Positions 22,323 through 39,348 of a stretch of DNA of 56,219 nucleotides are shown one piece after another. This stretch comes from Alphaproteobacteria bacterium. Lineage in GTDB: Bacteria > Pseudomonadota > Alphaproteobacteria > Rhodobacterales > Rhodobacteraceae. The position numbers and the translations under genes are program-made. The notes under the pieces are model-generated. The model saw only the letters and a list, made by a program, of their open reading frames with translations, made no database searches and was not told where the DNA came from. Position 1 is the stretch's first letter. Each line of letters opens with the position of its first letter. Location: positions 1 to 56,219 of the forward strand of contig JAUHVK010000029.1 of assembly GCA_030425145.1 (NCBI GenBank), given 5' to 3'.

Positions 22323-22944
22323 CCCGATCCTGACGCTGGCGCAATGGCTGTCGCCGGGCTTTCCCATCGGAGCCTTCGCCTATTCCAGTGGATTGGAGCA
22401 GGCGATTGCCGACAAGGTGGTCACGCCCACAACGGTGGAGGATTGGCTGTCGGACATGCTGCGCGACGGCAACGGTGTGAGTGACGCGATCCTGATCCGG
22501 GCAGCCGCCAGCGGGATGGACCCGTGGGACGTGGACCAGACCGCGCGCGCCTTCTGCCCCAGCCGCGAACGGCTTTTGGAGGTCGACGCGCAGGGTACAG
22601 CGTTCTGTGACCAGTTGCGCGCAAACTGGGGCATCGACGCGACGGGCCTGACCTATCCGGCGGCGCTGGGCGTGGGGATCAGACACCTGGACCTGCCGCT
22701 GACCATGGCGGTGCAGATGTACCTGCACGCCTGGGTCGCTGCCGTGGTCGCCGCCTGCCAACGCCTGATGGCGCTGGGCCAGACCGAGGCGCAGCGCATT
22801 GTTGCGGCCCTGTCGCCGCTCTGTTCCGAGATCGCCGCGCAGACCGAAGACCAGACGCTTGACGATCTGACCAGCCAGAGCTTTGCTGCCGATATCGCCG
22901 CGATGCGTCACGAAACCCTCAGCCCAAGGATTTTCCGCACATGA
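22294..22944 (+). CDS. ureF: urease accessory protein UreF
   Basis: A 216-residue all-helical UreF that bridges UreD and UreG during nickel loading. The diagnostic [20 protein letters not shown] block is at about residues 18-37. The start ATG 22294 lies within ureE, preceded by GGAAGGAGGAG; an in-frame start at 22255 would lack this. The stop overlaps ureG as ATGA. Confidence 0.93.
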
Positions 22945-23552
22945 GCACCCGCAACGGACCCCTTCGTGTCGGCATCGGTGGCCCGGTCGGTGCGGGGAAA
23001 ACCTCGCTCACCGCGGCGCTGGCGAAACGGCTCAAGGACACCCATTCGGTGGGTGTAATCACAAATGATATCTACACGCAGGAAGATGCCGAGGCGCTGA
23101 TGCGGATGCAGATCCTGCCGCAGGATCGGGTGATCGGCGTGGAAACCGGCGGCTGCCCGCACACCGCGATCCGCGAGGACGCGTCAATCAATCTGGCCGC
23201 CGTCGCCGAGATGGTCAAACGCCACCCGGATGTCGAAGTGGTGCTGATTGAAAGCGGCGGTGACAACCTCTCGGCCACGTTCAGCCCGGAGCTCGCCGAC
23301 GTGACGCTCTACGTGATCGACGTGGCGGCGGGTGAGGAAATTCCCCGCAAAGGTGGGCCTGCATTGACCCGGTCGGACATTCTGGTGATCAACAAGACCG
23401 ACCTCGCGCCGCACGTCGGTGCGTCCCTCGAAGTGATGAACCGCGACGCCACAAAGATGCGCGAAGGCCGTCCTTTTGTCTTTGCCGCGATCCGTCACGA
23501 TCAAGGCGTGGACGAGGTTCTGGATCACCTTAAACGGGTCTCAGGGCTCTGA
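22941..23552 (+). CDS. ureG: urease accessory GTPase UreG
   Basis: A 203-residue SIMIBI GTPase that drives nickel insertion. P-loop GPVGAGKTS at residues 14-22, [14 protein letters not shown] switch region, the nickel-binding Cys-Pro-His in [15 protein letters not shown] and the NKTD guanine motif near 147-150. It is the last gene of the operon. After it, 23553-23649 contains only a weak GTAAC/GTTAC hairpin. Confidence 0.96.
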
Positions 23553-24118: not shown

Positions 24119-25420
24119 TCAATCGACGGGCAGCCCGCTCGGCACCCGCTCCGGTCGGCCCAAAGGACGTGTGAGCGCCGTTTCCCCGGTCAGGCTCTCC
24201 AGAAACGCCATCAGATCGTCAACCTGTGCATCGGTCAGGGAAACCGGCCGCACGTCCAGCGTTGCGGCCTGGCGCGCCATTTCAAGCTGGTCAGACTGGA
24301 TCACGTAGTCGATCACGGCCAACCACGGCACCTCTGGCATAGCCGCCCGCGCCGGGTTCCAGTCATCGCGCATCGACACTGGGTCCGCCATGTGGCGCAC
24401 CATATCCCGCAGGCTCGCATAGGCCCCGTTATGGCCATAAGGTGCGGTCAGCGTCACGTTGCGCAGCGGCGGGGTGCGAAAGCGGTAGGCGTCCTCAAGA
24501 TCATCCGTCGCGCCCATCCGCCCCACATCGCGCGGGATCGGATCCCAGCGGCGGGTGCGCCCGGGTCCAAAAGCGGGCAGGGCCATTGCGTGAAAGTCCT
24601 GATCGCTCAGCAGCGGCCCGTTGTGGCATTGCGCACAGCGCGCCTCGCCAAAGAACAACTGCCGCCCGCGTTCGGCATCGTCGGGCAGGGGTGTGCCATC
24701 CGTCAGGAACGCATCATAGGGGCTGTCATAATTCGCCCATTCGGTACCGATGAAGGCGGCCAGAGCGTTGCCGATCTCGACAATGGTCACGTCCTCCGGG
24801 CGGTCGATATGGTCGAAGGCCGCGACAAACATCTGGCCGTATTCCGGGATTGTCCGCACCCGCTTGGCAAGGATCGGCCATCCGAGGTCGATCCGGTCGG
24901 TCACGGCGCCGATGATCTCGTTCTCGCCGGTATTCCCGGCCATCTCGAATTGCGCGGTCATCGGGAACAGCGCCTGCGCGGCGAGGATCGTCTCAAGCCC
25001 CTGTGGCAGCCATTCCTCGGCCGGGCTGTCATAGCCATTGCCGTAGATGTTCGAAATCTCGAGCCGTCCGTCATGGAACAGCACGCGCACGTCCTTGTGC
25101 CCGAGGTTCCACAGCGCCGGCGCGTTGCGCGGGATGCGCTTGCGGATACGGTCCGCCCCGTCGCCGGGCAGGCGCTTTGGCCCTAGGCCAACGCCGCCTT
25201 CTCCGATGCCCAAGGAAAGACCATCGCCGCCACCCAGATCGTGATGGTGACAGGTCCCGCAGGAGATATTCTTGTTTCCGCTCAGAATCTTGTCGTAAAA
25301 CAGAAGTTGACCCAAGCGCGCCTGATCGGCATCGAAGGAGATGAAATCTTCCGCCGTAATGGGCTGCGCCAACGCAGGGGACGCAACAAGAGACAGAAAG
25401 ACGGGCAGACCAAGATGAAT
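24119..25420 (-). CDS. di-heme cytochrome c peroxidase / MauG-family protein
   Basis: A protein of about 430 residues with an apparent Sec signal (LGLPVFLSLVASPALAQ) and two c-type haem motifs: CGTCHHH near residue 55 and CAQCHNG near residue 270. The family reduces peroxide or carries out MauG-like oxidations in the periplasm. The start is a problem: no ATG, GTG or TTG stands in frame before the signal peptide within a sensible distance. The only candidate is ATT at 25420, and that region is antisense to the start of the divergent Sel1 gene. An AUU start, a misplaced start or a local sequence change are all possible. The coding assignment itself is firm. Confidence 0.8.
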   Translation of the reverse strand: MHLGLPVFLSLVASPALAQPITAEDFISFDADQARLGQLLFYDKILSGNKNISCGTCHHHDLGGGDGLSLGIGEGGVGLGPKRLPGDGADRIRKRIPRNAPALWNLGHKDVRVLFHDGRLEISNIYGNGYDSPAEEWLPQGLETILAAQALFPMTAQFEMAGNTGENEIIGAVTDRIDLGWPILAKRVRTIPEYGQMFVAAFDHIDRPEDVTIVEIGNALAAFIGTEWANYDSPYDAFLTDGTPLPDDAERGRQLFFGEARCAQCHNGPLLSDQDFHAMALPAFGPGRTRRWDPIPRDVGRMGATDDLEDAYRFRTPPLRNVTLTAPYGHNGAYASLRDMVRHMADPVSMRDDWNPARAAMPEVPWLAVIDYVIQSDQLEMARQAATLDVRPVSLTDAQVDDLMAFLESLTGETALTRPLGRPERVPSGLPVD

Positions 25421-25891
25421 TGGACCGGTTTGAGTGTCGCTCTTTGCCTCACGGCCTTGCCAGCGCTGGCCGATATCGAGGATGCGCGCGACCTGATGGA
25501 AGAGGGCCGTTTTGACGAGGCTTATGACGCGCTCTGGCCCGCGGCGCGATCGGGCAATGCCGAGGCCGAAGAACTGATCGGTGTCATGTACGCGCTGGGG
25601 TTGGGGGTCGAGCAGGACTATGTCCGCGCCTTCGACTGGTACCTGCGCGCGTCGCTCAAGGGACATCCCGGCGCGCAGTCGGGCATCGGCTGGTACTACG
25701 AAACCGGTCTTGGCCTGCCCGCCCCGGATCTCGTCCGCGCGTTCCTCTGGTACCAGCTCAGCACCATCGGCGGTGACCCCGACGCGGCCATGTCGGTCGA
25801 GGAGGTGGTCAAAAAGATGACGCCGGAACAGATCGAACATGCGCAACAGCTCGTGGATGACTACCGGGTCTGGCTCTACCCGTTTCGATAA
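25415..25891 (+). CDS. exported Sel1-repeat protein
   Basis: A 158-residue protein with a signal peptide (residues 1-19, cut after ALA-D). Sel1-like (SLR) TPR-type repeats follow (about 45-125): AEELIGVMYALGLGVEQDYVRAFDWYLRASLKG and AQSGIGWYYETGLGL-type units. SLR proteins mediate protein interactions, often in the periplasm. Start ATG 25415 follows a purine-rich stretch (GAAAGACGGGC). It runs divergent to, and overlaps the 5' end of, the di-heme peroxidase gene. Confidence 0.82.
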   Translation: MNWTGLSVALCLTALPALADIEDARDLMEEGRFDEAYDALWPAARSGNAEAEELIGVMYALGLGVEQDYVRAFDWYLRASLKGHPGAQSGIGWYYETGLGLPAPDLVRAFLWYQLSTIGGDPDAAMSVEEVVKKMTPEQIEHAQQLVDDYRVWLYPFR

Positions 25892-26191: not shown

Positions 26192-26599
26192 TCAGACGAT
26201 TCTCGGTCCTGCAAGGCACAGGGAAACAGCGCTGTCGACGTTGTGGAACCCCTGGCTGATCGAACGATCATCAATGCCTGTCAAACGTACGTCGAAGGTC
26301 TTTTCGCGCCCGTCCTTGCAACGCACGGTGACGGTGCCGTTCTGCACCGGCCCCTTGAACGTCAGGGTCACGTCGAAATCCGGCGGGTTGGCGAGGTTCT
26401 CTGCCGTGCGCCGCGCGGCCGCCTGTCCGGCCGGGTCGAGCAGCCCGCGCCGCCCGAGTTCGACCTCGGCCTCGCGGAACGCGGTCACGGCTGCGCTTTG
26501 GTCATAGAAGGTCGCCATCGGGAAGCGTTTCATTCCGTGTGTGATCCACATGGAGAACAGTTGCCCGTCCCCGGTGATTGCGATGGAAGGTTTCGACAT
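26192..26599 (-). CDS. hypothetical protein
   Basis: A 135-residue soluble protein, start supported by AGGAG ten bases upstream of ATG. The N-terminal part (SIAITGDGQLFSMWITHGMKRFPMATFYDQSAAVTAFREAE in outline) suggests a small beta-alpha domain; the C-terminal half has beta-rich DVTLTFKGPVQNGTVTV and ends in GPRIV. No signal peptide, no membrane segment, no family I can name. Codon use matches its neighbours, which supports it being real. Confidence 0.55.
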   Translation of the reverse strand: MSKPSIAITGDGQLFSMWITHGMKRFPMATFYDQSAAVTAFREAEVELGRRGLLDPAGQAAARRTAENLANPPDFDVTLTFKGPVQNGTVTVRCKDGREKTFDVRLTGIDDRSISQGFHNVDSAVSLCLAGPRIV

Positions 26600-27057: not shown

Positions 27058-28116
27058 TCAGTTCAGGTCGGCTTCGTACTCGGCTGCCAGATCGGCTTCG
27101 GCTTCGGCCACAGCCTTGGTCAGGGCTTCGAAAATTTCCGGACCGCCATCGACGTTTTCCTGGAACCAGTCGAACACCGGGGCTGCCGCATTGCGGAAGA
27201 CTTCCTTTTCTTCCGGGGTCGGCACGTAGAGGTCACCGCCACCCGCGACAAAGTCCTGATACGCCTGGATCGACTTGCGCTTGGGCGAGGCGAATGTCGC
27301 CTGCTGAAGCGCGGCAAAGCCATCGACCACGACGCGGCGCATGTCTTCGGGCATGTCCATGAACTTTGCGTTGTTCATCACCCAGATCGCGCCCATGTAG
27401 GCGTGACCATCAAGCGTGACGTAATTCAGGCCCGCATCGGGGAACTTCATGCCCATAATGTCGGTGATGCCGTTCTTGGAGCCATCGACCACACCGGTCT
27501 GGAACGAGGTGAAGAGTTCCGGCCAGCTGATCGGGGTCGGGGCCGCGCCCATCGCCTTCACAACTTCCTGCGGCAGGTCCGCGACCACGGTGCGGATTTT
27601 CAGACCCTCGAGGTCGGAGGGCTGCGTCACGCGGCGCTTGGTGTTGGCAAAGTTGCGCCAGCCACCGGTGTTGCCGATGGTCATGATGCGGATGGTGTCG
27701 CCTGAATCCTCAAGCGCCATGTTGCGCATGGTGCGGGTGAAATCGCCCGACAGAACATGCTCCGCCACGCGGTCATCCGACATCAGGTACGGCAGGTCGA
27801 GCACCTGCACATAGGGGAAGATGCCCGCGGCACCGCCCGAGGTGGTCACGAACACGTCGATGGAGCCGTCAGAGACACCCTGAAGGCACTCCGCACCGCC
27901 CGAGCAAAGCTGCGTACCGATGAAAAGCTCAACCCCGATGCGGCCGTTCGAGGCGTTCTCGACATAGTTCTTGAACACGACGAGGCCGTCATAATCCTCG
28001 TCGTTTTCGTTCGAGTTTGCCGTGGCACGGATGGTGAAATCCTGTGCCGCCGCTGTCATTGCGCTGCCGGCCAGCAAGGCCGCCGTCAGTGCCACTTTTG
28101 TAAGACCTTTGAGCAT
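27058..28116 (-). CDS. TRAP transporter substrate-binding protein (DctP family)
   Basis: A 352-residue periplasmic binding protein with a signal peptide (cut after AAA-Q, about residue 25). The DctP fold is supported by the LEGLKIRT motif, whose Arg usually pairs with a carboxylate or other anion of the ligand, and by GVVDGSKNGITDIMGMKF. A Cys pair in QLCSGGAECLQG near residue 75 is unusual and may form a disulfide near the ligand cleft. Start at 28116 follows GGGAG; an upstream in-frame ATG at 28185 is unlikely. It is the last gene of an operon with a sulfonate-type monooxygenase, so a sulfonated sugar is my leading guess for ligand. Confidence 0.9.
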   Translation of the reverse strand: MLKGLTKVALTAALLAGSAMTAAAQDFTIRATANSNENDEDYDGLVVFKNYVENASNGRIGVELFIGTQLCSGGAECLQGVSDGSIDVFVTTSGGAAGIFPYVQVLDLPYLMSDDRVAEHVLSGDFTRTMRNMALEDSGDTIRIMTIGNTGGWRNFANTKRRVTQPSDLEGLKIRTVVADLPQEVVKAMGAAPTPISWPELFTSFQTGVVDGSKNGITDIMGMKFPDAGLNYVTLDGHAYMGAIWVMNNAKFMDMPEDMRRVVVDGFAALQQATFASPKRKSIQAYQDFVAGGGDLYVPTPEEKEVFRNAAAPVFDWFQENVDGGPEIFEALTKAVAEAEADLAAEYEADLN

Positions 28117-28174
28117 AGTGTACTCCCTGTTGCTTTCTCGTGGTCGGTTACACGGGCCGTGTGACCCGCAGATG

Positions 28175-29464
28175 TCAGTCCGCAAATCCTGTGAGGCGCG
28201 GAATGGTCATGGAAATTTCGGGGATGAAGGTGATGAGGAAAATCACCACGATTTCGATGAAGAGGAAGGGCAGGATCGCCTTGGAAATGGTCTCGACCCG
28301 TTCGCCCGAAACCGAAGAGGCGACAAAGAGAACAAGCCCCATAGGCGGTGTGGCCAGACCCACGGTCAGGTTCACCGACATAATGATTGCGAAGTGGATC
28401 GGGTCGACACCCAGATCGACAAAGATTGGCCCGAGGATCGGCCCCAGAATGATGATTGCCGGTCCGGCGTCGAGGAACATGCCAACGACGAAAAGCAGCA
28501 GGTTGATCAGGAAAAGCAGGATCAACGGGTTCTGGCTCAGCCCCAGCACGAATTCCGCGAGGATCTCGGGTGTGTGCGACAATGACACAACCGTCTTGAA
28601 CGCCATCGCCGCGCCCACAAGCAGCAGAACAGTAGCCGAGGTCATGGCGGCGCGCATGAACACGTCGGGCAGGTCTTTGATCTTGAGCGTGTTGAGAACG
28701 AACATCCCGATGATGATCGCATAGGCCACCGCCACGGCGGCCGCTTCAGTGGGTGTGAAGACCCCAGCCAAGATACCGCCAAGGATGATAACCGGCGTCA
28801 TCAGTGGGAAGAACGCCTTGAGCGAGGCATCGCCCCTCTCACCCCAACTGGCCTTCTGGCGCGAGGCCGGGAAGTCGTACTTGTCGGCCATGAACTTGAC
28901 CATGATCATCAGGCCGACACCCACGAGGATGCCGGGGATGATACCCGCGAGGAACAACGCGGCGACGCTTTCTCCCATCACATAGGCGTAGATGATCATG
29001 ATGCCGGATGGCGGGATGATCGGGCCGATCACCGAACTTGCGGCGGTGATGGCGGCCGCAAACCTGCGGGTGTAGCCCTCTTTCTCCATTGCCGGGATCA
29101 GCATCGACCCCAGCGCCGACGTGTCCGCCACGGCAGAGCCTGACAGCCCGGCAAAGAGCATCGACGACAGCACGTTTACATGCGCCAGACCGCCCCGGAA
29201 ATGGCCCATCATCGCCTGGCTGAATTCCACCAGTCGCATGGTGATACCGCCCCGGTTCATCAGCTCGCCCGCCAGCATGAAGAACGGGATCGCCATCAGT
29301 GGAAAGGACGCCATGCCGTTATAGACGTTGCGATAGAGCAGGATCAGGTCGCGGTCCTGACCGTTGAGCCAGAGCAGAATGCCGGGCGCGGCTAGCATTC
29401 CAAAGAACACCGGCAGGCCGATCATCAGGAAGAAAAGGAAAAGCGGAAGGAACCAGACCAGCAT
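28175..29464 (-). CDS. TRAP transporter large permease (DctM family)
   Basis: A 429-residue membrane protein with about twelve to thirteen hydrophobic segments, the transport subunit of a sodium-driven TRAP system. Conserved family stretches include the N-terminal MIGLPVFFGM, the GLSGSAVADTSALGSMLIPAM helix-hairpin and GLATPPMGLVLFVASSVSGE near the C-terminus. It works with the small permease directly upstream (four-base gap) and the binding protein downstream. Confidence 0.93.
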   Translation of the reverse strand: MLVWFLPLFLFFLMIGLPVFFGMLAAPGILLWLNGQDRDLILLYRNVYNGMASFPLMAIPFFMLAGELMNRGGITMRLVEFSQAMMGHFRGGLAHVNVLSSMLFAGLSGSAVADTSALGSMLIPAMEKEGYTRRFAAAITAASSVIGPIIPPSGIMIIYAYVMGESVAALFLAGIIPGILVGVGLMIMVKFMADKYDFPASRQKASWGERGDASLKAFFPLMTPVIILGGILAGVFTPTEAAAVAVAYAIIIGMFVLNTLKIKDLPDVFMRAAMTSATVLLLVGAAMAFKTVVSLSHTPEILAEFVLGLSQNPLILLFLINLLLFVVGMFLDAGPAIIILGPILGPIFVDLGVDPIHFAIIMSVNLTVGLATPPMGLVLFVASSVSGERVETISKAILPFLFIEIVVIFLITFIPEISMTIPRLTGFAD

Positions 29465-29468
29465 GGGA

Positions 29469-30047
29469 TCACTCCGACGTCAGCTCGGCGTCGAGAGGCG
29501 AGCGCAGCTGATCGCCCCCTCCGGCCAGAGTGATGAGATTGCGCAGGATCAATTCGAAATTGACGATGAGGAGCAGCCACAGCCCGGTCACGAGCGATGC
29601 GATCTGCCAGGAGTTGGGCATCTTCTCCCAACCGCCGGGAGTGGGGTATTTCAGTGAGGCGCTTTTGAACTTGCCTGCAAGGCTGGTCATTTCGCCAAGC
29701 CCCATCTGCGCGCCGATATACAGCACCACGCCCGAGATCAGCAGCAGAGCAAGCGCCAAGAGGGCCGCGCCGCGTTGGGGCAGGGCAGAGGACAGGATCT
29801 CAAGCGCCACGAAACCACCCCGGCGATAGGCCGACGGCGCGATCACGGCGGTCATCCAAAGCATCAGGAAGATCGCCGCCTCTTCGGGCCAGGGCAGGGC
29901 ATTGCCCAGCACGTAGCGAAAGAACACCTGCAACAGGATGGCGCAGACCATCAGACCGATGGCGGTAATCGCAATCCAGCGACCGATGCGGAGCACGATA
30001 TCGAGCACGGCTTCCAATGGCTTCAGGAGCCACAGCAAAATGGCCAT
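29469..30047 (-). CDS. TRAP transporter small permease (DctQ family)
   Basis: A 192-residue protein with four hydrophobic segments, as usual for DctQ. WPEEAAIFLMLWMTAVIAPSAYRRGGFVALEIL is the typical core. Start at 30047 follows GGAGGAGG; the in-frame ATG at 30068 lies before that site. A 7-bp hairpin (30068-30087) stands between this gene and the flavin reductase gene and may modulate expression inside the operon. Confidence 0.9.
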   Translation of the reverse strand: MAILLWLLKPLEAVLDIVLRIGRWIAITAIGLMVCAILLQVFFRYVLGNALPWPEEAAIFLMLWMTAVIAPSAYRRGGFVALEILSSALPQRGAALLALALLLISGVVLYIGAQMGLGEMTSLAGKFKSASLKYPTPGGWEKMPNSWQIASLVTGLWLLLIVNFELILRNLITLAGGGDQLRSPLDAELTSE

Positions 30048-30117
30048 CAGGCCTCCTCCCAATCCCACACCGGCCTCCCTGCCGGTGGCCCCGCTTTTTA
30101 TGTTTTATCGGGGCAGT

Positions 30118-30624
30118 TTATGTCGCTTCCGTAAATCCTCCGTAGCGCCCGCTGAAAAACAGAAGCGGGTCTCCCTCGCGTGTGGTCACCCGGCGCACGC
30201 GGGCGACAACGATGGAATGATCGCCACCGTCATGCTCGGACACCTTGGTGCATTCGAACCGGCTCAGGCAGCCGTTCAGCAGCGGGACATTGTGGTCGCC
30301 GATTTCCCAGTCGAACTGGTCGAACGGGTTGCCGTTGCGCGCAAAGGCCGTGCAGAGGCCCGCCTGTTCCGCGCCGACCACATGGATCGCAAAATGATCT
30401 GCCGCCATGAAGAACGGATAGCGGCTTGATGATTTGGCCGGCGACCACAGCACCAGCGGCGGGTCGAGCGACACGCTGGCAAAGCTGTTGGCGGTGATGC
30501 CCAGCGGCCCATCGCCTGCATCGCAGGTGATGACGGTCACTCCGGTTCCGAAACGGCCTAGCGCATCGCGAAAATCGCGGCTGCTCTGCTGTGCGGGGTC
30601 AAAGCTGTGCGTCAAGGCGTTCAT
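30118..30624 (-). CDS. flavin reductase (HpaC-like, partner of the monooxygenase); smoA-like by context
   Basis: A 168-residue FMN-binding split-barrel flavin:NAD(P)H reductase. GRFGTGVTVITC and GITANSFASVSLDPPLVLWS are the flavin-binding blocks, and GGDHSIVVARV holds the GDH motif for NAD(P)H. It should supply reduced flavin to the LLM monooxygenase encoded two genes upstream. It follows the aldo/keto reductase gene by eight bases. The order monooxygenase, AKR, flavin reductase matches, as I recall, smoC-smoB-smoA of sulfoquinovose oxidative desulfonation. Confidence 0.88.
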   Translation of the reverse strand: MNALTHSFDPAQQSSRDFRDALGRFGTGVTVITCDAGDGPLGITANSFASVSLDPPLVLWSPAKSSSRYPFFMAADHFAIHVVGAEQAGLCTAFARNGNPFDQFDWEIGDHNVPLLNGCLSRFECTKVSEHDGGDHSIVVARVRRVTTREGDPLLFFSGRYGGFTEAT

Positions 30625-30632
30625 CGCTTGTC

Positions 30633-31520
30633 TCAGGCCACTTCATGTCCAAGGGCGTGCGTGTAAAGGTCAAACCATGTCTCCCGGTCGATCTGAATCT
30701 TGGCAGCATCGCCGATGCGGGCGATGCGGTCCAGATTGTTGGTGCCGAGGACAGGTAGGATGCGCGCCGGATGCGCCAAGAGCCAAGCGACAGCAACAGC
30801 CGCTTCGTCAACGCCGTAATCGTCGCCAATGGACTTGAGCGCGGCGCGCAGTGCCGCGTTTTTCGGTTCGAAGAGCGAGCCTCCACCCAAGGGCGACCAT
30901 GCCATCGGCGGCTGGCCGTTCTTCTGGTGGAACGCGATATCGCCATTGGTGAAAGGCGCGTGATGCAGAAGGCTGATCTCGATCTGGTTTGTGACAAGCG
31001 GGGTCTTCATCGACGCCTGCAACAGTTCCCAATCCCAGGGGCGGAAGTTCGACACGCCAACTGCGCGGACCTTGCCGGACGCCACAACCTCGTCAAGCGC
31101 AGCGCCGGTTTCGCAGGCATCCATCAGCGGGTCGGGGCGGTGGATCAGCAGAAGGTCGATATGGTCGATCTTCATCAGCCGCAGCGAATGGTCGACCGAG
31201 GACAGGATATGGTCGCGCGAGGTGTCGTAGTATTTGACCAGCGCGCCAGAATAGCGTCCCACCGGGGCCACTATATCGCACTTGGTGACGATCTCGATCT
31301 GATTGCGCAGCTCGGGGGTCAGAGCCTCGCCGAGGATCGCTTCGGCCTCATAGCCGCCATAGATGTCGGCCTGGTCCATCGTGGTGATGCCCTGATCAAG
31401 GCAGGCGCTGATCTTGTTGCGGACGTGATCCACGCTTGTGTCAGCATCGTCACCCAGCCGCCACATGCCATAGACAAGGCGGCTCATCTCGAGGGCGTCG
31501 TTGAACTTCACACGATCCAT
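30633..31520 (-). CDS. aldo/keto reductase (YdhF-like); smoB-like by context
   Basis: A 295-residue (alpha/beta)8 NAD(P)H oxidoreductase. The catalytic tetrad is visible: Asp49 and Tyr54 in MDQADIYGG, Lys80 in IVTKCD and His127 in LLIHRPDP. Its ATG overlaps the monooxygenase stop (TAATG). In the sulfoquinovose monooxygenase pathway an AKR reduces 6-oxo-glucose to glucose after sulfite release; the context makes the same role plausible here. A general sugar aldehyde reductase is the alternative. Confidence 0.88.
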   Translation of the reverse strand: MDRVKFNDALEMSRLVYGMWRLGDDADTSVDHVRNKISACLDQGITTMDQADIYGGYEAEAILGEALTPELRNQIEIVTKCDIVAPVGRYSGALVKYYDTSRDHILSSVDHSLRLMKIDHIDLLLIHRPDPLMDACETGAALDEVVASGKVRAVGVSNFRPWDWELLQASMKTPLVTNQIEISLLHHAPFTNGDIAFHQKNGQPPMAWSPLGGGSLFEPKNAALRAALKSIGDDYGVDEAAVAVAWLLAHPARILPVLGTNNLDRIARIGDAAKIQIDRETWFDLYTHALGHEVA

Positions 31521-32674
31521 TAGCGGCGGACTCCGTTTCCAAGTGGGGTTGCGGGGGTGCCGTTCGGCACACGCCCATACGCTTCGTTCAGTTGTACGGT
31601 TTTCAGTTGCGGCAGCACCCTGCTGCCAAAATGGCGGCATTCGTCCAGATGCGGATAGCCCGACAGGATAAAGGCGCGGATACCCATCTTCTGGTACTGC
31701 TCCAATTCGCTCAGCACCTGATCGGTGGACCCCACCAGCGCCGCTCCACAGCCCGAGCGCGCGCGGCCCACACCTGTCCACAGATGCGGCTCTACAAAGC
31801 CTTCCATATCCGCCAACTCGCGGTTCTTGGCTTGATGCGACACGCCGAGCGAGGTGGCGTCCAACGCGCGTTCGCGGATCGTCTTGCCCTGTTCTTCGTC
31901 CAGCTTGCTGACGATGTGCTGCGCGTATTCGCGGGCCTCGGCCTCGGTATCGCGAACAATGACATGTACGCGCAGGCCGTAGTCCAGCGTCCGCCCATAG
32001 CGCTCGGCTACCGCGTTCACATCTTTCATCCGTTGCGCCAACGCGTCTTTCGGTTCGGGCCACATCAGGTAGACGTCGCAATGCTGACCACACAGCTCCA
32101 GCGCGTCGGGGGAATAGCCGCCGAAATACAGAAGGGGGCCGTTTGTCTGGTAAGGAACCGCCGGATCGGTGGTCAGGCCTTCGAAATTGTAGACCTCACC
32201 TTTGTAATTGATCTCGCCTTGGGTCCACGCCTGCTTGAGGATCTCGACCACCTCGCGCGAGCGCTGGTAGCGCAGCTTGCTGTCTTCCTTCTCGCCCGGG
32301 AAATCCGAGGAGATGATGTTCACCGTCAACCGCCCTTCAAGCATATGGTCCAACGTGGCGATGGTGCGGGCCAGCATGATCGGTTGCATCTCGCCGCAGC
32401 GCACGGCGGCCAGCATGTTGATCTTTTCGGTAATCGGCGCGCAGCCGGCGACAAAGGACAGCGTGTCCTGACCCACCTGATACGATGACGGGCAAAGGAT
32501 GTTGCGGAAGCCCTGCGCTTCGGCCTCTTTCACGATGCCCGAGCAATGCGCAAAGCTCGACCGCAGTTTGCCGTCGGGCACGCCAAGGAATTCGTAATCG
32601 TCAGAACAAAGCGCCGCGAACCACGATACCTCTGCCGCGTCGAGGTCGGGGGAGGTGATCGGCACGATGGTCAT
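31520..32674 (-). CDS. LLM-class flavin-dependent monooxygenase, SsuD-like; candidate sulfoquinovose monooxygenase
   Basis: A 384-residue bacterial-luciferase-fold enzyme closest, by eye, to alkanesulfonate monooxygenase SsuD. Three SsuD active-site blocks are conserved: RVHVIVRDT at 235-243 (with His237), GVGRARSG at 301-308 (with Arg306) and LSGYPHLDE at 337-345 (with Tyr340). The SsuD Cys54 position is not conserved (SSYQVGQD here), which points to a different sulfonate. Such enzymes use FMNH2 and O2 to cleave a C-S bond, giving sulfite and an aldehyde. It is the first gene of the operon and divergent from a GntR regulator. With an AKR and flavin reductase downstream, a sulfosugar substrate is likely. 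Confidence 0.88.
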   Translation of the reverse strand: MTIVPITSPDLDAAEVSWFAALCSDDYEFLGVPDGKLRSSFAHCSGIVKEAEAQGFRNILCPSSYQVGQDTLSFVAGCAPITEKINMLAAVRCGEMQPIMLARTIATLDHMLEGRLTVNIISSDFPGEKEDSKLRYQRSREVVEILKQAWTQGEINYKGEVYNFEGLTTDPAVPYQTNGPLLYFGGYSPDALELCGQHCDVYLMWPEPKDALAQRMKDVNAVAERYGRTLDYGLRVHVIVRDTEAEAREYAQHIVSKLDEEQGKTIRERALDATSLGVSHQAKNRELADMEGFVEPHLWTGVGRARSGCGAALVGSTDQVLSELEQYQKMGIRAFILSGYPHLDECRHFGSRVLPQLKTVQLNEAYGRVPNGTPATPLGNGVRR

Positions 32675-32728
32675 AAGGTGTCTCCGAAGCGCATCATTTC
32701 CTCTTGCGTAGCACCGTCAAAAATGTAG

Positions 32729-32745
32729 ATCAATAGTGTATCAAT
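32729..32745. promoter_or_regulatory. candidate regulator site: ATCAAT direct repeat
   Basis: ATCAAT occurs at 32729-32734 and again at 32740-32745, one helical turn (11 bases) apart. It lies in the 86-base gap between the divergent monooxygenase and GntR genes, where an operator for both promoters is expected. The call rests on position and spacing only. Confidence 0.35.
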
Positions 32746-32760
32746 TTTTTGGTGCAAGAA

Positions 32761-33462
32761 ATGTCCGACACCCACGCCCTGCCAAAATATGTCCAGATCA
32801 GCGAATTGCTGATCCGCGATATTCAGGCTGGTCGCTTGGTTGATGGCGAACGTTTGCCGCCTGAACGCGAAATGGCGACGCGGCTTGGCATTTCGGTGGG
32901 CACCTTGCGCAAATCGCTTGATGAGCTGACCGCGCTGGGCTTGCTCGAACGGGTGCAGGGCTCGGGCAATTACGTCTGCGCGCAAGAGGATACGCAGTCC
33001 GTCTACGCGTTTTTCCGCGTGGAGTTGATCGAAGGCGGCGGGTTGCCGACAGCCGAGCTTCTTTCGGTGGACCGTTTGCCCAAGCCTGAAGGATTGCCGT
33101 CTTTTGGAGAGGAAGACGACGGTCATCGGATTCGCCGCTTGCGCCGGTTGAACGGTATTCCGGCGGTGCTCGAAGAGATCTGGCTCGATGGCAGCTATGT
33201 CGATCAGATCGACGCCGTGGCGCTCCGCGAGTCGCTTTATCTCTACTATCGGGAATCTCTGGGCCTCTGGATCACCAAGGCGGTGGACCGGCTCGATCTG
33301 GATACCGTGCCGGATTGGGCCCCGTCCGCCTTTGGTCGGGCTTCGGGCCTGCCCTGCATGCGCGCCACGCGTGTCAGCTATGGCCCGGATGGCGAGGCGG
33401 CGGAAGCCTCTTGGAACTGGATCAATACAGACGTCGCGCGTTACGTCGCGCGCATCACCTGA
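32761..33462 (+). CDS. GntR family transcriptional regulator (HutC/UTRA subfamily)
   Basis: A 233-residue regulator. The winged helix (residues 8-70) contains the GntR signature GERLPPEREMATRLGIS VGTLRKSLDELTALGLLERVQGSGNYV in outline. A UTRA ligand-binding domain (about 85-225) follows. HutC-type regulators respond to sugar, amino acid or organic acid ligands. ATG 32761 was chosen over an in-frame GTG at 32749. It is divergent from the monooxygenase operon and ten bases upstream of the Gfo/Idh gene, so it most likely controls both units in response to the pathway substrate. Confidence 0.9.
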   Translation: MSDTHALPKYVQISELLIRDIQAGRLVDGERLPPEREMATRLGISVGTLRKSLDELTALGLLERVQGSGNYVCAQEDTQSVYAFFRVELIEGGGLPTAELLSVDRLPKPEGLPSFGEEDDGHRIRRLRRLNGIPAVLEEIWLDGSYVDQIDAVALRESLYLYYRESLGLWITKAVDRLDLDTVPDWAPSAFGRASGLPCMRATRVSYGPDGEAAEASWNWINTDVARYVARIT

Positions 33463-33471
33463 AGGACCAAC

Positions 33472-34563
33472 ATGAAAGTCATCAATTACGGCATCATTGG
33501 ATGCGGCATGATGGGGCAGGAGCACCTGCGCAATATCGCACTGCTTGAAGGCGCGCGTGTGGCTGCGATATTCGAGCCGGATGAGATCATGGCGGCGGCG
33601 GCCAAGGCGATTGCGCCCAATGCCAAGCTTGAGGCGTCGATTGCCGATCTTCTGGCGCGTGATGATCTGGACTGCCTTCTGGTCGTCAGTCCGAACCATT
33701 GCCATATCGATGCGCTGGAGCAGATCGCGGAATTGAACCCGTTGCCGCTCTTGATGGAAAAGCCGCTCTATACTGATCCGGCAGACATCGCGCGGGTCGA
33801 GGCGATTGCCGCCAGCTACCCGTCGCCGATCTGGGTGGCGATGGAGTACCGCTATATGCCGCCCATCCAGACCTTCGCCGAAGAGGTGCAGCGCGCCACC
33901 GGTGGGGTGAAGATGCTGACGATCCGCGAACACCGCTTTCCCTTCCTGCACAAGGTGGGCGACTGGAACCGCTTTAACCGCAACACCGGCGGCACGCTGG
34001 TCGAGAAATGCTGTCACTTCTTCGACCTCATGCGCCTGATCCTGGGGTCCGATCCGGTGCGGGTGACTGCCAGCGCGGGGCAGGAGGTCAACCATCTGGA
34101 TGAGACCTATAACGGCGAAGTGCCCGACATCTGGGACACCGCCTATGTGATCGTCGATTTCGCCAATGGCGCGCGGGCGATGCTGGAGTTGTGCATGTAT
34201 GCCGAGGGCTCCAAGTATCAGGAAGAGATCAGCGCGGTGGGTCCGAACGGCAAGATCGAAGCCTTTGTGCCGGGGCCGGGGCGGTTCTGGCCAACCCATC
34301 TTGGGGTTCCGCCGGTGGCGCAGGTGATCATTTCTCCGCGTCATCCGAAAGGGCCTCAGGCGGTCGAAATTCCGGTCGATCCAGCAATCCTTGATGCGGG
34401 TGATCACAACGGATCCACCTTTTATCAGCACGCCAAATTTCTTGAGCTGGTGCGCAATGGCGGGGTGCCAGAGGTGTCCATCCATGATGGGGCCTGGGCT
34501 GTGCGCATGGGGATGGCCGCGCAGAAATCTGCGCAATCCCATAGCGTTGTCGAGGGTTTTTGA
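33472..34563 (+). CDS. Gfo/Idh/MocA family oxidoreductase; candidate NAD-dependent sulfoquinovosidase
   Basis: A 363-residue two-domain protein. The Rossmann domain carries GIIGCGMMG (7-15) and the family MEKPLYTD motif (95-102; Lys97). The C-terminal domain has GGTLVEKCCHFFD at 173-185, the position of the catalytic Asp/His block. The gene follows the GntR regulator by nine bases and belongs to the sulfonate monooxygenase locus. Gfo/Idh-fold proteins include both sugar dehydrogenases and NAD-dependent glycosidases; a family of NAD-dependent sulfoquinovosidases with this fold has been described (GH188, as I recall). No GH31 glycosidase is encoded nearby, so this protein is the candidate to release the sulfosugar. 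A plain sugar dehydrogenase remains possible. Confidence 0.85.
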   Translation: MKVINYGIIGCGMMGQEHLRNIALLEGARVAAIFEPDEIMAAAAKAIAPNAKLEASIADLLARDDLDCLLVVSPNHCHIDALEQIAELNPLPLLMEKPLYTDPADIARVEAIAASYPSPIWVAMEYRYMPPIQTFAEEVQRATGGVKMLTIREHRFPFLHKVGDWNRFNRNTGGTLVEKCCHFFDLMRLILGSDPVRVTASAGQEVNHLDETYNGEVPDIWDTAYVIVDFANGARAMLELCMYAEGSKYQEEISAVGPNGKIEAFVPGPGRFWPTHLGVPPVAQVIISPRHPKGPQAVEIPVDPAILDAGDHNGSTFYQHAKFLELVRNGGVPEVSIHDGAWAVRMGMAAQKSAQSHSVVEGF

Positions 34564-34732: not shown

Positions 34733-37700
34733 ATGAATGCGATTAATTTCGTTGTCCGTACGCGTGCGGGTGCGGTCGAGCGTGGTGTAGTTGGTGCAGA
34801 AGATCGGGGATACCTGATCGACGCTGCTGGTGGCCGCGAAATTTCTCTCAATCTTCATAGATCCGATTTGCGCAGCTATGACCGCGTGGCGAACGATCTG
34901 CATATTCTTCTGGCAGATGGCCGGGTGATCGTGCTCGAGGATTATTTCGATTCCAGCGGCAGCCGCCTGTTTCTCAGTACAAACGGCGTCCTCAGCGAAG
35001 TGGCCTTTGCCGAAGGCGACGGCGGCGCGCTGTTCGCGCAATACGGCGATGTCGCTGCCTGGGGCAAATGGAGCCCGGATGACGCGCTGATCTTCTTTGA
35101 CCGCGCCGAAGTCGTCGCGGCCGATTACGTCGCTGCCGAGAATGAAAGCGATGTCTCGATGCTGGCCGCAGGATTGCTGGCAGGCGGCGGGATGCTGCCG
35201 TGGCTTGCCGGTGGCGCAGCGGTGGCAACCGGCGCAGCCGTGATTGGCGGCACCGGCGATGGCGGTGGCGGCGGTGGCAGCCTGACCGGCAACAATGGCG
35301 AAAGCGGCGGCCCCAAGACGCCAACCGTCAATGACGGCGAATACGTGATCGGCGGTGACGGCCTGACCGAAGAGGACCGCACCGTTCTGGTCAGCGGCAC
35401 GGCAGAATCCGGCGATACCGTCGTCGTCGTGATCGGTGACAAGACGCAGACGACCACAACCGGCACTGACGGCAAGTGGGAAGTGATCTTCACCGGCCCG
35501 AATTTCCCGGCCGACGGCAGCTACACCACCACGGTCACGGTGACCGGGGGCGGCGGCACGACCACCACCCTGACCGGTCCGACCGTTATCATCGACACCA
35601 CACCGCCGCCGCTTGTGATCACCAGCGGCACCACGGCGAGCGGCGACATCATCACCGAGATCGAGTTTGATGGCGGTGCGACGATCACCGGCACCACCGA
35701 GATCGGCGCAACGGTTGTCGTCATTGCGGGTGGTGTCAGCCATGTGGCGGATGTGGATGCGCAGGGCAACTGGAGCATTACGCTCACCAGCTCCACCTTC
35801 GAGCGCGGTGAATATGTCGAAGCAATCCGCGTGATTGCGACCGACAGCTTCAACAACTCGACCACGATCAATGACGGAATCGAGATTGACACCGTGTCGG
35901 GTGTGACCATCAACACCACCACCATCGAAACCGATGGCATCATCAACGCAGATGAGCGCAGCGACGGCGTTCAGATCACCGGCACCACTGACATTGGCTC
36001 GACGGTTGTCGTCGAAATGAACGGCTATACCCGCACCGCATTTGTCGATGCGCAGGGCAACTGGACAGTGACCTTCATTGCCACCGAGATCCCGGTCGGC
36101 GAACAGAACCTGACGATCAACGCCACCTCCACCGACGCGGTGGGCAACACCAGCAGCGCCACGGGGCAGGTCGTGCTTGATACATGGGTGCGCAATTTCG
36201 ACATCACCAGCCAGGCGGGTGGTGCCGATGGCATCGTCAACGCCGAAGAAGCGGCTCAGGGCATGGTTGTCACAGGCACAACCGAGCCGGGCGCTACAGT
36301 GACTGTGACCCTTGGCGGTGTGTCGCGCAGCGCGAGCGTTGATGTGAACGGCAACTGGACCGTCACCTATTCTGCCAACGAACTGCCGAGTGGTGAGCAG
36401 ACTTCCACACTTACTGCAAGCTCGACTGACCGCGCGGGCAATACTGCGACCGAGACCCGCAGCGTGGTGTTCGACACTGACGCCGGTCTCTTGACGATCA
36501 GCCCAGCACCGATCGAAACAGACGACATCGTCAACCAGGCCGAAGCCTCGGACGGCGTTGTGATCACAGGCACATCCACCCCGTTCGCGATGGTTGACGT
36601 GACGCTGGATGGGGTCGCCAAGACCGTCCAGACCGACAGCTTCGGCATCTGGCGCGCGAACTATGCGGCAGGCGAGGTTCGTCCCGGTGAGTATGAGGCA
36701 CAGATCACCGCCTACACCGTTGATGCGGCGGGCAATGAACTGACCCGCTCTGACACCGTGATGGTGGACACTTTCGTGCGCAACTTTGCAGTCAGCGCCA
36801 ACCCGGTCACATCCGACAATATCGTCAACAATGCCGAACAAGGGCAGGGCGTGACGCTGAGCGGCGCAACCGAGCCGGGCGGAACCGTAACCGTAGTTGT
36901 AGAAGGCGTCACCCGCGTGGCGAGCGTCGATTCGGGGGGCAACTGGACGGCGATGTTCTCGGGCTTCGATCTGCCGGATGGCACCTACACCACCACCGCA
37001 CAGATCAGCACGCAGGACCGTGCGGGCAACACCGCGACAACCACCAAGACCTTCCAGGTCGATACCGAAGTGGTGCCGCTCACCTCGACCAGCCAGCCGG
37101 GCGGGTCTGACGGCATCGTTGGCGAGGCAGAAGCAGCTCAGGGCTTTACCCTGACCGGTCAGGTCGAGCAGGGGTCTTCGGTGATGGTGACCATCGCAGG
37201 TCAGCAGATGCAGGCGCAGGTCAGCGCCGCTGGCGCGTGGTCCGTAGCCGTGCCGCCAAGCGTGATCCCGACAGTGAACGGCGAAAGCGTGTCGATCCAG
37301 ATCGCCGCGACCGATGCGGCGGGCAACACCAAGTCGATCACCGAAACCATGGTGGTGGACAATGTTGCGCCCGATGCCCCGGACATGACTGCGATCACCC
37401 GCGATCAAAGCCAGGCTGTGCGCGGCATCATTCTTGAAAACACCGGCGATGACGTGGTCATCGAACGGGTCAGCAATTCCGGCTCGCAGAACGTCAGCTT
37501 CAACGACCAGGACAACACGTTTACCGGGGAAACGACCTACTCGTTTACCCAGGTCGTGCCGGACGGCTCTCACCTCGTGATCACGGCCACCGATGCCGCG
37601 GGCAACAGCTCGGGGACATATGTGGTGGTCGATGATCCGAACACCTCGCAAAGCAACGTCACTCTGGCGGGCAACCTTGGCGGTCGGGAGATCGACGCGA

Positions 37701-37933
37701 TCGACCTCGAGTTCACCGAAGAGGCAACGCTGACCATCACCGAAGCGCAGATCGTTGCGATGACGGGCGAAGACAACACGGTTCGCGTCCTTGGCAACAC
37801 AGACGACTCGGTTCGGATCACCGGTGCAACCCGCACCGGTACCCGGTTCGAGGATGGCCAGAGTTACGACGTTTACGATCTGGGCGACGCAACCGTTCTG
37901 ATCGACGACGACATCAACAGCGTCACAATCTAA
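34733..37933 (+). CDS. type I-secreted adhesin with BapA-like N-terminus and Ig-like repeats
   Basis: A 1066-residue protein without Sec signal. Residues 1-95 resemble the BapA prefix domain. A hydrophobic Gly/Ala stretch (142-173) and a Gly/Ser linker (174-195) follow, and may act as a retention element in the outer-membrane pore. Then come about eight Ig-like modules of 95-100 residues (about 195-965), recognised by repeats of [IV]TGTTE.GATV and NW[ST]V/T...DxAGNT. The C-terminal block (about 975-1066) with TITEAQIVAMTGEDNTVRVLG-type sequence and TVLIDDD matches the ending of many type I secreted adhesins. No RTX nonapeptides are seen. The three genes downstream encode a complete type I exporter. 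Role: cell-surface adhesion or biofilm. Confidence 0.85.
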   Translation: MNAINFVVRTRAGAVERGVVGAEDRGYLIDAAGGREISLNLHRSDLRSYDRVANDLHILLADGRVIVLEDYFDSSGSRLFLSTNGVLSEVAFAEGDGGALFAQYGDVAAWGKWSPDDALIFFDRAEVVAADYVAAENESDVSMLAAGLLAGGGMLPWLAGGAAVATGAAVIGGTGDGGGGGGSLTGNNGESGGPKTPTVNDGEYVIGGDGLTEEDRTVLVSGTAESGDTVVVVIGDKTQTTTTGTDGKWEVIFTGPNFPADGSYTTTVTVTGGGGTTTTLTGPTVIIDTTPPPLVITSGTTASGDIITEIEFDGGATITGTTEIGATVVVIAGGVSHVADVDAQGNWSITLTSSTFERGEYVEAIRVIATDSFNNSTTINDGIEIDTVSGVTINTTTIETDGIINADERSDGVQITGTTDIGSTVVVEMNGYTRTAFVDAQGNWTVTFIATEIPVGEQNLTINATSTDAVGNTSSATGQVVLDTWVRNFDITSQAGGADGIVNAEEAAQGMVVTGTTEPGATVTVTLGGVSRSASVDVNGNWTVTYSANELPSGEQTSTLTASSTDRAGNTATETRSVVFDTDAGLLTISPAPIETDDIVNQAEASDGVVITGTSTPFAMVDVTLDGVAKTVQTDSFGIWRANYAAGEVRPGEYEAQITAYTVDAAGNELTRSDTVMVDTFVRNFAVSANPVTSDNIVNNAEQGQGVTLSGATEPGGTVTVVVEGVTRVASVDSGGNWTAMFSGFDLPDGTYTTTAQISTQDRAGNTATTTKTFQVDTEVVPLTSTSQPGGSDGIVGEAEAAQGFTLTGQVEQGSSVMVTIAGQQMQAQVSAAGAWSVAVPPSVIPTVNGESVSIQIAATDAAGNTKSITETMVVDNVAPDAPDMTAITRDQSQAVRGIILENTGDDVVIERVSNSGSQNVSFNDQDNTFTGETTYSFTQVVPDGSHLVITATDAAGNSSGTYVVVDDPNTSQSNVTLAGNLGGREIDAIDLEFTEEATLTITEAQIVAMTGEDNTVRVLGNTDDSVRITGATRTGTRFEDGQSYDVYDLGDATVLIDDDINSVTI

Positions 37934-37951
37934 GCAAAAGGACAGACTGTT

Positions 37952-37974
37952 CGGGCCGTTACAGCGGCGGCCCG
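37952..37974 (+). other. intra-operon hairpin between adhesin and exporter genes
   Basis: CGGGCCG (37952-37958) pairs with CGGCCCG (37968-37974) around a nine-base loop, just after the adhesin stop. No T-run follows, so it could stabilise the adhesin mRNA end or partly attenuate exporter expression. Confidence 0.35.
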
Positions 37975-38016
37975 GGCCCCGACACAACAAAAAGCCAAAG
38001 GCGGGGTTCGATCGAG

Positions 38017-39348
38017 ATGAGGCAGAAAACAAGAGCCATCGCAGGAGCAGTCCTCGCAGCAACGGCTCTTTCGGGATGTATGCAGGATTTGGGCGACGGG
38101 GCGGTGTCCCGGCTCCTGACCGCGCAGCCGGGTGCGCCCGCTGAGCTCGCTGGCGAGACCAAGACAGCTGCGCCCAACCCAGCCTCGGTTCAGGAAGTCT
38201 CTCCGGTTATTGCAGAGCTTGCCGCACGCCAGAGCGTATTGGTGCCCGGCTCTCCTTATGCCGAAGTGGCAGCGGGTGTACTGGCCGCGGACGCCCGTGT
38301 CGCAGAGGCAGAGCTGCATGTGGCGCAACTGCGCGCCGAGGCGGCTTCAAAGAACTGGTGGCCAACGATTTCTCCCCGCATCACGCTGACATCACTGGGA
38401 GATCTGGTGGCCGATCTGGTGATCAATCAGGTGCTGTTCGACAATGGCCGCAAGAAAGCCGAACGCGAGCTTGCAAAGGCGGATGTAGAACTGGCGGCGG
38501 TCAATCTGTCGGAAAGCAGCAATGATCGCGTCTATGATGGGTTGGTTCTGTACCTTCAGGCCGAAGAGGGGCGCGCTGCGGCAGACCTCTATGGTCAGGC
38601 GCTCAAGGACATGGGCCGGTTTGAATGGGTGATGAACGAACGCGTCACAGGTGGCGTGTCCGATTTCTCTGACCTCAACGTGCTGAAACAGAAACTGGCC
38701 GATCTGCGCGCCCGGGATACGGCAGCGCGCGAAAAGACCACCCGCGCTGTCGCCGAGCTGAACGCGATGTCCGCCATGCCTTTGGCCGACCTGCGCGGTT
38801 TGCACGGGATGGGAGAGACATCGTCGCATCAGTCGCTGAACGTGCTGCGCGCGCAGGTCGAACGCGATCGGCAACTGGCGCAGGCCAAGATTGCCAGAGC
38901 GGCGCATCTGCCGGGGCTGTCGGCGGGCGGCAGCATCCGCAATGGCGGCGAGGGCATCAGTCTCAGTGCCAGCACCGAACAGATGCTGGGCATCGGGACC
39001 GGTGCGTCGCTCAAAGCCATAGAGGCAACAAAGATCACCGCGGATCGCAAGGTCACCGAGGCCGAGAACATCTCGCGCCGCGCCATCGAGGCGGACCAGC
39101 GCAGCATTGCCGCGCTGAAACGGCAAGCGGCTGAGGCCAAGGCGCTGACCACGCAGGCCAAGACCAATCTCGACCTGTTTCAACGCCAATATGATGCCGG
39201 CACCCGGCAGGTGATGGATGTGGTCAGCGTTTATGAAACCTTCCTGCGGGCACTGGAAAAGGAACTGACTCTCACGTTCCAGGCCGCCCGCGCCGAACTG
39301 GACGCCGCCAACCGGTTGGGCGTTCTTGCTGATGGAGCAAAGATTTGA
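38017..39348 (+). CDS. TolC-family outer membrane factor (lipoprotein) of the type I exporter
   Basis: A 443-residue TolC-like protein. A lipoprotein signal ends in LSGC (Cys21). Two long coiled-coil repeats typical of outer membrane efflux proteins run through about 85-220 and 270-435. A proline-poor helical ending ANRLGVLADGAKI closes it. It forms the outer membrane channel for the adhesin with the ABC and HlyD proteins encoded next. Its TGA overlaps the next gene's TTG. Confidence 0.85.
   Translation: MRQKTRAIAGAVLAATALSGCMQDLGDGAVSRLLTAQPGAPAELAGETKTAAPNPASVQEVSPVIAELAARQSVLVPGSPYAEVAAGVLAADARVAEAELHVAQLRAEAASKNWWPTISPRITLTSLGDLVADLVINQVLFDNGRKKAERELAKADVELAAVNLSESSNDRVYDGLVLYLQAEEGRAAADLYGQALKDMGRFEWVMNERVTGGVSDFSDLNVLKQKLADLRARDTAAREKTTRAVAELNAMSAMPLADLRGLHGMGETSSHQSLNVLRAQVERDRQLAQAKIARAAHLPGLSAGGSIRNGGEGISLSASTEQMLGIGTGASLKAIEATKITADRKVTEAENISRRAIEADQRSIAALKRQAAEAKALTTQAKTNLDLFQRQYDAGTRQVMDVVSVYETFLRALEKELTLTFQAARAELDAANRLGVLADGAKI

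Follow-up and report, generated by a model that had tools for sequence, protein, structure and literature searches.

A predicted sulfoquinovose monooxygenase locus with a TRAP transporter, a GH188 sulfoquinovosidase and a neighbouring di-haem protein gene in a Rhodobacteraceae genome

Gene content and conservation of the locus

Sulfoquinovose (SQ) is the sulfonated sugar of the sulfolipids in plant and algal membranes. About 10 billion tons of it are made per year (PMC10755693). In the sulfoquinovose monooxygenase (sulfo-SMO) pathway, which involves SmoC, SmoB and SmoA, the C–S bond of the sugar is cleaved to give sulfite and 6-oxo-glucose, and the latter is converted to glucose (PMC9594981, PMC12890257). 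The pathway is prevalent in the Roseobacter clade (PMC13372026), and enzymes of glycoside hydrolase family 188 (GH188) are near-universal in the sulfo-SMO clusters of marine Roseobacter (Kaur et al. 2023, PMC10755693). Here we describe a locus of this kind in a 56,219-nucleotide stretch of contig JAUHVK010000029.1 (assembly GCA_030425145.1) from an alphaproteobacterium of the family Rhodobacteraceae; the whole stretch is referred to as the window. By sequence the locus is a sulfo-SMO cluster with predicted activity on SQ, in which the pathway genes stand beside a tripartite ATP-independent periplasmic (TRAP) transporter, a GntR/UTRA regulator and a GH188 sulfoquinovosidase, SqgA. We give a probability of roughly 0.93 to the joint reading that the TRAP transporter imports the substrate, GH188 releases SQ, SmoC, SmoA and SmoB desulfonate it to glucose, and GntR controls the genes.

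A preliminary description of this DNA had named eight genes and their arrangement, and all eight lie at the place, in the order and on the strands it gave, with Pfam in agreement for each of them (Table 1). The motifs that it quoted for the monooxygenase (RVHVIVRDT, GVGRARSG and LSGYPHLDE) are likewise present in the translation. smoC and smoB have a single base in common at the junction TAATG, while gaps of 8 and 4 bases separate smoB from smoA and dctQ from dctM, respectively. The GntR/UTRA and Gfo/Idh genes run on the plus strand, divergently from the minus-strand smo and TRAP genes. The span described earlier, 27058–34563, omits two genes of the wider picture, at 24119–25891.

Table 1. Genes and features of the locus, with the basis on which each was assigned
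Feature	Position	Strand	Basis
SmoC-type FMNH2-dependent SQ monooxygenase, predicted (384 residues)	31520..32674	-	Bac_luciferase (Pfam), SsuD-like
SmoB-type aldo/keto reductase, predicted (6-oxo-glucose to glucose)	30633..31520	-	Aldo_ket_red (Pfam)
SmoA-type flavin reductase, putative (reduced FMN supply)	30118..30624	-	Flavin_Reduct (Pfam); role from position
TRAP small membrane subunit DctQ	29469..30047	-	PF04290
TRAP large membrane subunit DctM	28175..29464	-	PF06808, 400.9 bits
TRAP solute-binding protein DctP, probable SQ and/or SQ-glycerol binder	27058..28116	-	PF03480
GntR/UTRA regulator	32761..33462	+	PF00392 and PF07702
SqgA, predicted GH188 NAD+-dependent sulfoquinovosidase (Gfo/Idh fold)	33472..34563	+	PDB matches and active-site residues
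Tandem ATTGAT-N5-ATTGAT operator, presumed GntR site	32729..32745	-	Conservation in smoC–gntR intergenic regions
MauG/cytochrome c peroxidase-like di-haem protein, two CxxCH	24119..25408	-	PF03150; start codon uncertain
Sel1-repeat protein	25415..25891	+	PF08238, two repeats; signal-peptide-like N-terminus (by eye)

The arrangement recurs widely. All eight genes are found in the same order and on the same strands in 54 of 80 public-genome loci (the best 80 of 554 relatives), which argues that the locus is not a product of chance, and the TRAP genes are present in 55 of the 74 public loci with at least 5 kb of sequence downstream. We also surveyed 292 genomes of the order, drawn evenly and at least 90% complete. 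SmoC is sharply bounded within this set: 141 genomes carry it at a threshold of E 1e-120, each with at least 73% identity, and no match falls between E 6.6e-194 and the cut-off. The SmoC of the window is 97% identical to that of Marivita cryptomonadis, which suggests that the DNA comes from a Marivita. In the loci fetched from the 140 other SmoC genomes, as stretches of up to 20 kb, SmoB lies near SmoC in 138, GntR in 136 and a flavin reductase in 120; a flavin reductase is also not part of every published sulfo-SMO cluster (PMC9594981). TRAP genes stand directly downstream of SmoC in 93 of these loci (94 with the window), and all 93 also have SmoB, SmoA, GntR and SqgA.

Predicted desulfonation enzymes, sulfoquinovosidase and putative operator

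The monooxygenase of the window gave phmmer scores of 680.9 bits to 7oh2 and 679.2 bits to 7olf, compared with 182 bits to the alkanesulfonate monooxygenase SsuD (1m41), and is identical to the 7olf chain at 293 of 383 positions (76%). We take 7oh2 and 7olf to be the SmoC enzymes, and 7bby the SmoB, of the sulfo-SMO study; their PDB names are generic. For an unrooted tree, 18 SmoC sequences (that of the window and 17 chosen among the fetched loci) were combined with 7oh2, 7olf and two SsuD-type chains, the last two over their aligned parts. The SsuD-type pair is set apart by a branch measuring 1.68 (support 1.000), while 7oh2 and 7olf fall among the roseobacter SmoC sequences, support within the SmoC side being low in places. 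The comparison with SmoC and SsuD that the preliminary description had in view thus places the enzyme with 7oh2 and 7olf and far from SsuD. The aldo/keto reductase scores 418 bits to 7bby, with 196 of 295 residues identical (66%), against 214 bits for the next family. Monooxygenase grouping, aldo/keto reductase and gene order all fit the earlier proposal of a sulfosugar, SQ, as substrate, which is therefore supported by sequence.

Beyond the regulator gene lies a Gfo/Idh protein, which had been described as standing in for a sulfoquinovosidase. Its PDB matches and residues revise that view: as predicted from family and active site, the protein is itself a GH188 NAD+ (nicotinamide adenine dinucleotide)-dependent sulfoquinovosidase, SqgA. 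The best matches are 8zn9 (541 bits), 8qc3 (364.8 bits) and 8qc2 (364.1 bits), of which 8qc3 and 8qc2 are the GH188 NAD+-dependent sulfoquinovosidases ArSqgA and FlSqgA (PMC10755693). The window protein shares their fold family and their sugar- and sulfonate-binding residues, with 173 of 351 residues (49%) identical to ArSqgA, and is closer still to 8zn9. A sugar-dehydrogenase role was rejected, as the next match, an inositol dehydrogenase, scores only 65.9 bits.

All eight published GH188 residues that we compared (R166, L170, K172, K107, Y136, E189, H193 and H321) are present in the window, where their equivalents are R155, L159, K161, K97, Y126, E178, H182 and H312. The eight are invariant in 141 aligned sequences, made up of 137 homologues from SmoC loci, the window and three others. 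A ninth residue, Glu163, corresponds by count to Val in ArSqgA and to Arg in the window protein, while the Glu two positions before R166 (E153 in the window) is kept in 141 of 141; the mismatch is probably a numbering offset of one. With Leu at the L170 position the window SqgA is not one of the Tyr variants described at this position in PMC11465081. No signal peptide is evident by eye. The Agrobacterium smo cluster presumably carries a GH31 sulfoquinovosidase, whose place GH188 takes here; no GH31 was found among the eight locus genes scanned with Pfam, the rest of the genome not having been searched for it.

smoC and gntR stand head to head within 400 bases of each other in 135 of 141 loci, the window included, and in every one of these 135 intergenic regions the tandem repeat ATTGAT-N5-ATTGAT occurs with at most one mismatch (111 are exact), where mononucleotide shuffling expects 0.05. 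The TGCTACGCAAG stretch is conserved across these regions. The exact repeat is found once in the window genome, between smoC and gntR, and within the window the match is single, against 0.15 expected. Its second ATTGAT box overlaps a sigma70-like promoter identified by eye (TTGATC at 32733–32728 and TACGCA at 32710–32705, separated by 17 bp). The repeat is a putative operator, which GntR would bind to repress transcription.

The TRAP transporter and the di-haem protein gene

The preliminary description set the TRAP importer apart from the Agrobacterium version of the pathway, and the difference is real, with the TRAP form the commoner of the two in this order. SmoC, SmoB and SmoA are common to this locus and the sulfo-SMO clusters of Agrobacterium and Novosphingobium, whereas the importer named for Agrobacterium is an SQ-glycerol ABC (ATP-binding cassette) transporter (PMC9594981). 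That TRAP genes might be peculiar to this strain was ruled out by the 93 other loci that carry them. DctP was matched in 114 of the 292 genomes (E 3.8e-154 or better, at least 64% identity). SmoC is present in 96 of the 114, adjacent in 94 including the window and on another contig in two; the other 18 lack SmoC. In 17 of these 18 a GH188 gene (54–56% identity) lies on the same contig, about 5.0–7.1 kb from DctP. In the remaining genome, G241, the SQ-type DctP and DctM genes stand beside what appear from the open reading frame (ORF) list to be ABC transporter genes (L232, 6454–8825).

We read the gene content of five of the 18 SmoC-less DctP genomes (G001, G058, G059, G198 and G241), together with that of G077. 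Four of the five have a cluster of DctM, DctP, a di-haem gene, a PfkB kinase, a LacD-type aldolase and a fucose-isomerase-type protein, followed by SqgA, reminiscent of a sulfo-Embden–Meyerhof–Parnas (sulfo-EMP) route; YihV is a PfkB protein. These clusters span 4371–13784 in L228, 5187–13891 in L230 and 4934–13736 in L231, while in L229 SqgA lies just beyond the fetched stretch. For two of the four clusters the proteins were scanned with Pfam, and in one of these two the isomerase fell just under the family cut-off (29.2 versus 29.3 bits). The fucose-isomerase-type protein has no match in the PDB. The aldolase is closest to 8tnf, named only as a DUF2090 protein (313.7 bits), then to tagatose-bisphosphate aldolases, and lower to the sulfofructosephosphate aldolases (66.0 and 63.8 bits). 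Judged from sequence against the enzyme list in PMC9594981, the predicted pathway is a hybrid, with an SqvD-type isomerase and with a kinase and an aldolase that are not SqiK and SqiA.

The same TRAP genes, di-haem pair and GH188 gene thus occur in smo and in sulfo-EMP clusters, which points to the uptake of SQ or its glycoside. From this association we consider it very likely that the TRAP transporter imports SQ or its glycoside, with DctP the probable binder of SQ and/or SQ-glycerol. The conserved arginine of TRAP binding proteins binds the anionic group of the substrate, and DctP has a GLKIR sequence at 171, whose R175 does not vary in an alignment of 32 sequences, that of the window among them. 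C71 and C77 are invariant in the same alignment and could form a disulfide or be a site of modification; to our knowledge such a cysteine pair is unusual for TRAP binding proteins.

The di-haem protein shares PF03150 and two CxxCH motifs with MauG, MbnH and bacterial cytochrome c peroxidases. It lies below every NCBIfam cut-off, with 239.9 bits for TIGR03981 (cut-off 340), 128.1 for TIGR04039, MbnH (362.85) and 106.8 for MauG (443.85), and scores 106.7 bits against the peroxidase 2c1u. In the order it belongs instead to a distinct and tightly conserved group beside the SQ-type TRAP genes, of 94 genes in 93 genomes (E 1.2e-151 or better, at least 55% identity), separated from other paralogues, which among the matches listed have E values of 7.2e-123 or worse and at most 50% identity. 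A PSGLPVD-like C-terminus is found in most of 39 aligned members. Of the 94 copies, 86 are downstream of DctP on the same strand, at 519–7519 bases (median 901).

Across the 292 genomes, 90 have both DctP and the di-haem gene, 3 the di-haem gene only, 24 DctP only and 175 neither (Fisher 2e-48, uncorrected for ancestry). In the 140 fetched SmoC stretches the gene was seen in 65 of 93 TRAP loci and in one of the 47 others. Among the 80 public loci it follows DctP in 41 of the 55 with TRAP genes, with 3 of the 14 misses having less than 5 kb of room, and in L006, a public locus that has no TRAP genes, it follows SmoA. In the four sulfo-EMP clusters it stands between DctP and the kinase, directly before the latter; its stop codon and the earliest start codon in the kinase reading frame have 4, 4, 1 and 1 bases in common (L228, L229, L230 and L231), so that it looks like part of one operon. 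Of 146 loci examined, 71 contain the di-haem gene, and 70 of these have a Sel1-repeat gene in head-to-head orientation to it. These observations make the di-haem protein a probable partner of the TRAP module.

Elsewhere in the window, a 135-residue ORF at 26192–26599 had no Pfam match and no homologue in the 146 loci. Beside SqgA, at 34733–41564, there are a long repetitive adhesin-like ORF and TolC-like and ABC exporter-like genes, named from ORF lists, and a similar adhesin- and exporter-like run, named in the same way, flanks SqgA in L006 (208–7914). Translations at 21882–23552 resemble urease accessory genes. The genome also has two PF03404 and six PF00384 matches, candidates for sulfite disposal, which are not linked to the locus.

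Alternative explanations and the proposed pathway

A simpler explanation of the operon would be sulfur scavenging, with a monooxygenase of SsuD or methanesulfonate type acting on a simple alkanesulfonate. The nearest NCBIfam model is indeed TIGR03565, alkanesulfonate monooxygenase, and in the PDB 7oh2 and 7olf are named for alkane- or methanesulfonate; however, TIGR03565 scores 240 bits against a cut-off of 518. Moreover, 93 positions keep one residue throughout the 20 sequences of the SmoC side and have another in each of the two SsuD-type chains, and the aldo/keto reductase and GH188, both sugar enzymes, are conserved together with the monooxygenase. On the TIGR03565 shortfall, the distance from SsuD and the tree we ruled out simple alkanesulfonate use, which we regard as scarcely credible. 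A more serious alternative, though still an improbable one, is that the TRAP transporter imports something else, such as glycerol-derived acids or C3 sulfonates, and that SQ enters by an unlinked carrier. Organic acids are the best-known substrates of TRAP carriers, DctP matches the solved chains only distantly (the top score is 121 bits), and many SmoC loci lack the TRAP genes. Against this, the same DctP is found beside GH188 in 17 of the 18 DctP genomes that lack SmoC, and four of the five that were read have another SQ pathway, so that what the two kinds of locus have in common chemically is the uptake and deglycosylation of SQ, and the arginine expected to bind an anion is present.

Several observations weigh against the joint reading of TRAP import, GH188 release, desulfonation and GntR control. 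TRAP genes are absent from 47 of the 140 SmoC loci, at least 18 of which have an ABC-type match nearby (a lower bound, from two ABC queries) and 29 neither; in G077 and G084 the TRAP genes and SmoC are on different contigs; and G241 has DctP with neither a GH188 nor a SmoC match, the sole exception among the 18. One-mismatch matches to the operator occur at ten other places in the genome, compared with one for a reversed control, and are possibly further sites or chance. The flavin reductase is inferred to be SmoA by position, its closest NCBIfam model being FerA at 210.6 bits with a cut-off of 260, and no NCBIfam cut-off being reached. The association counts are, in addition, uncorrected for shared ancestry.

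The part played by the di-haem gene is less certain. As the smo and sulfo-EMP routes part once SQ is free, the target of an accessory common to both should be uptake, the glycoside or the binding protein. We tentatively propose, at somewhat less than even odds, that the SQ importer is a portable unit of TRAP, di-haem and Sel1 proteins that is plugged, with GH188, into either sulfo-SMO or the hybrid sulfo-EMP pathway, and that the di-haem protein catalyses a step of sulfolipid use in the periplasm that has gone unrecognised, such as the oxidative modification, before uptake, of a sulfolipid-derived glycoside or of DctP, which has the invariant cysteine pair. Peroxide protection is a plain alternative role. 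The pair may instead be a mere chromosomal neighbour of the TRAP genes with no part in SQ use: in the window the di-haem gene is about 1.6 kb from DctP with no operator copy beside it, and the Sel1 gene runs the opposite way; 24 of the 114 DctP genomes lack the di-haem gene; it occurs in G087 and G216, where SmoC, DctP and GH188 are all without a match; and in G021, G025, G026 and G151 it is away from DctP. We think this less likely than not, given the position of the di-haem gene and its overlap of 1 or 4 bases in the four sulfo-EMP loci, its presence in 17 of the 18 SmoC-less DctP genomes, and the finding that no second PF03150 match occurs in the window genome, which encodes more than 20 further TRAP large subunits (PF06808 is matched 30 times, a few of the hits being fragments of a single gene).

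The pathway that we prefer builds on what is observed directly, namely family membership, the SqgA active-site residues, gene order and its conservation, and the conservation of the operator. From these we infer which reactions the strain carries out, what the TRAP transporter imports, that GntR binds the operator and represses, and what the inducer is. The TRAP transporter would import SQ and probably SQ-glycerol; because GH188 depends on NAD+ and no signal peptide is evident in SqgA, SQ-glycerol would be imported whole, and SqgA would free SQ from its glycoside in the cytoplasm in an NAD+-dependent reaction. SmoC would then use reduced flavin mononucleotide (FMNH2), supplied by SmoA, to cleave the C–S bond of SQ to sulfite and 6-oxo-glucose, which SmoB would reduce to glucose. 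The GntR/UTRA protein, bound at the ATTGAT operator that overlaps the predicted smoC promoter, would most likely keep both divergent transcripts repressed as long as SQ and its derivatives are absent.

The core of the system, sulfo-SMO with GH188, is already known, and the novelty implied by the preliminary description was too high: roseobacter clusters of this kind are in print (PMC10755693), and the present locus is one of them, with nothing essential different. Liu et al. 2023 (ISME J) is reportedly the main roseobacter SQ paper. The less explained parts are the identity of the importer, the operator and the di-haem pair, none of which is discussed in the portion of the main text of PMC10755693 considered here. 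The Agrobacterium SQ-glycerol ABC importer is the only SQ importer named in the corresponding portions of PMC9594981 and PMC12890257. A literature search found, in the entries that it listed, no described link of sulfoquinovose with TRAP transporters or cytochrome c peroxidases, nor of MauG with TRAP transporters, although an earlier description of the TRAP transporter is possible. Roseobacters are among the marine degraders of SQ, and a defined TRAP importer would provide both a marker and a test for the entry of sulfosugars into their cells. The conserved operator offers a direct handle on regulation, and the recurrence of a di-haem protein beside the importer in two different routes of degradation gives a hint that a step in the periplasm has been overlooked.

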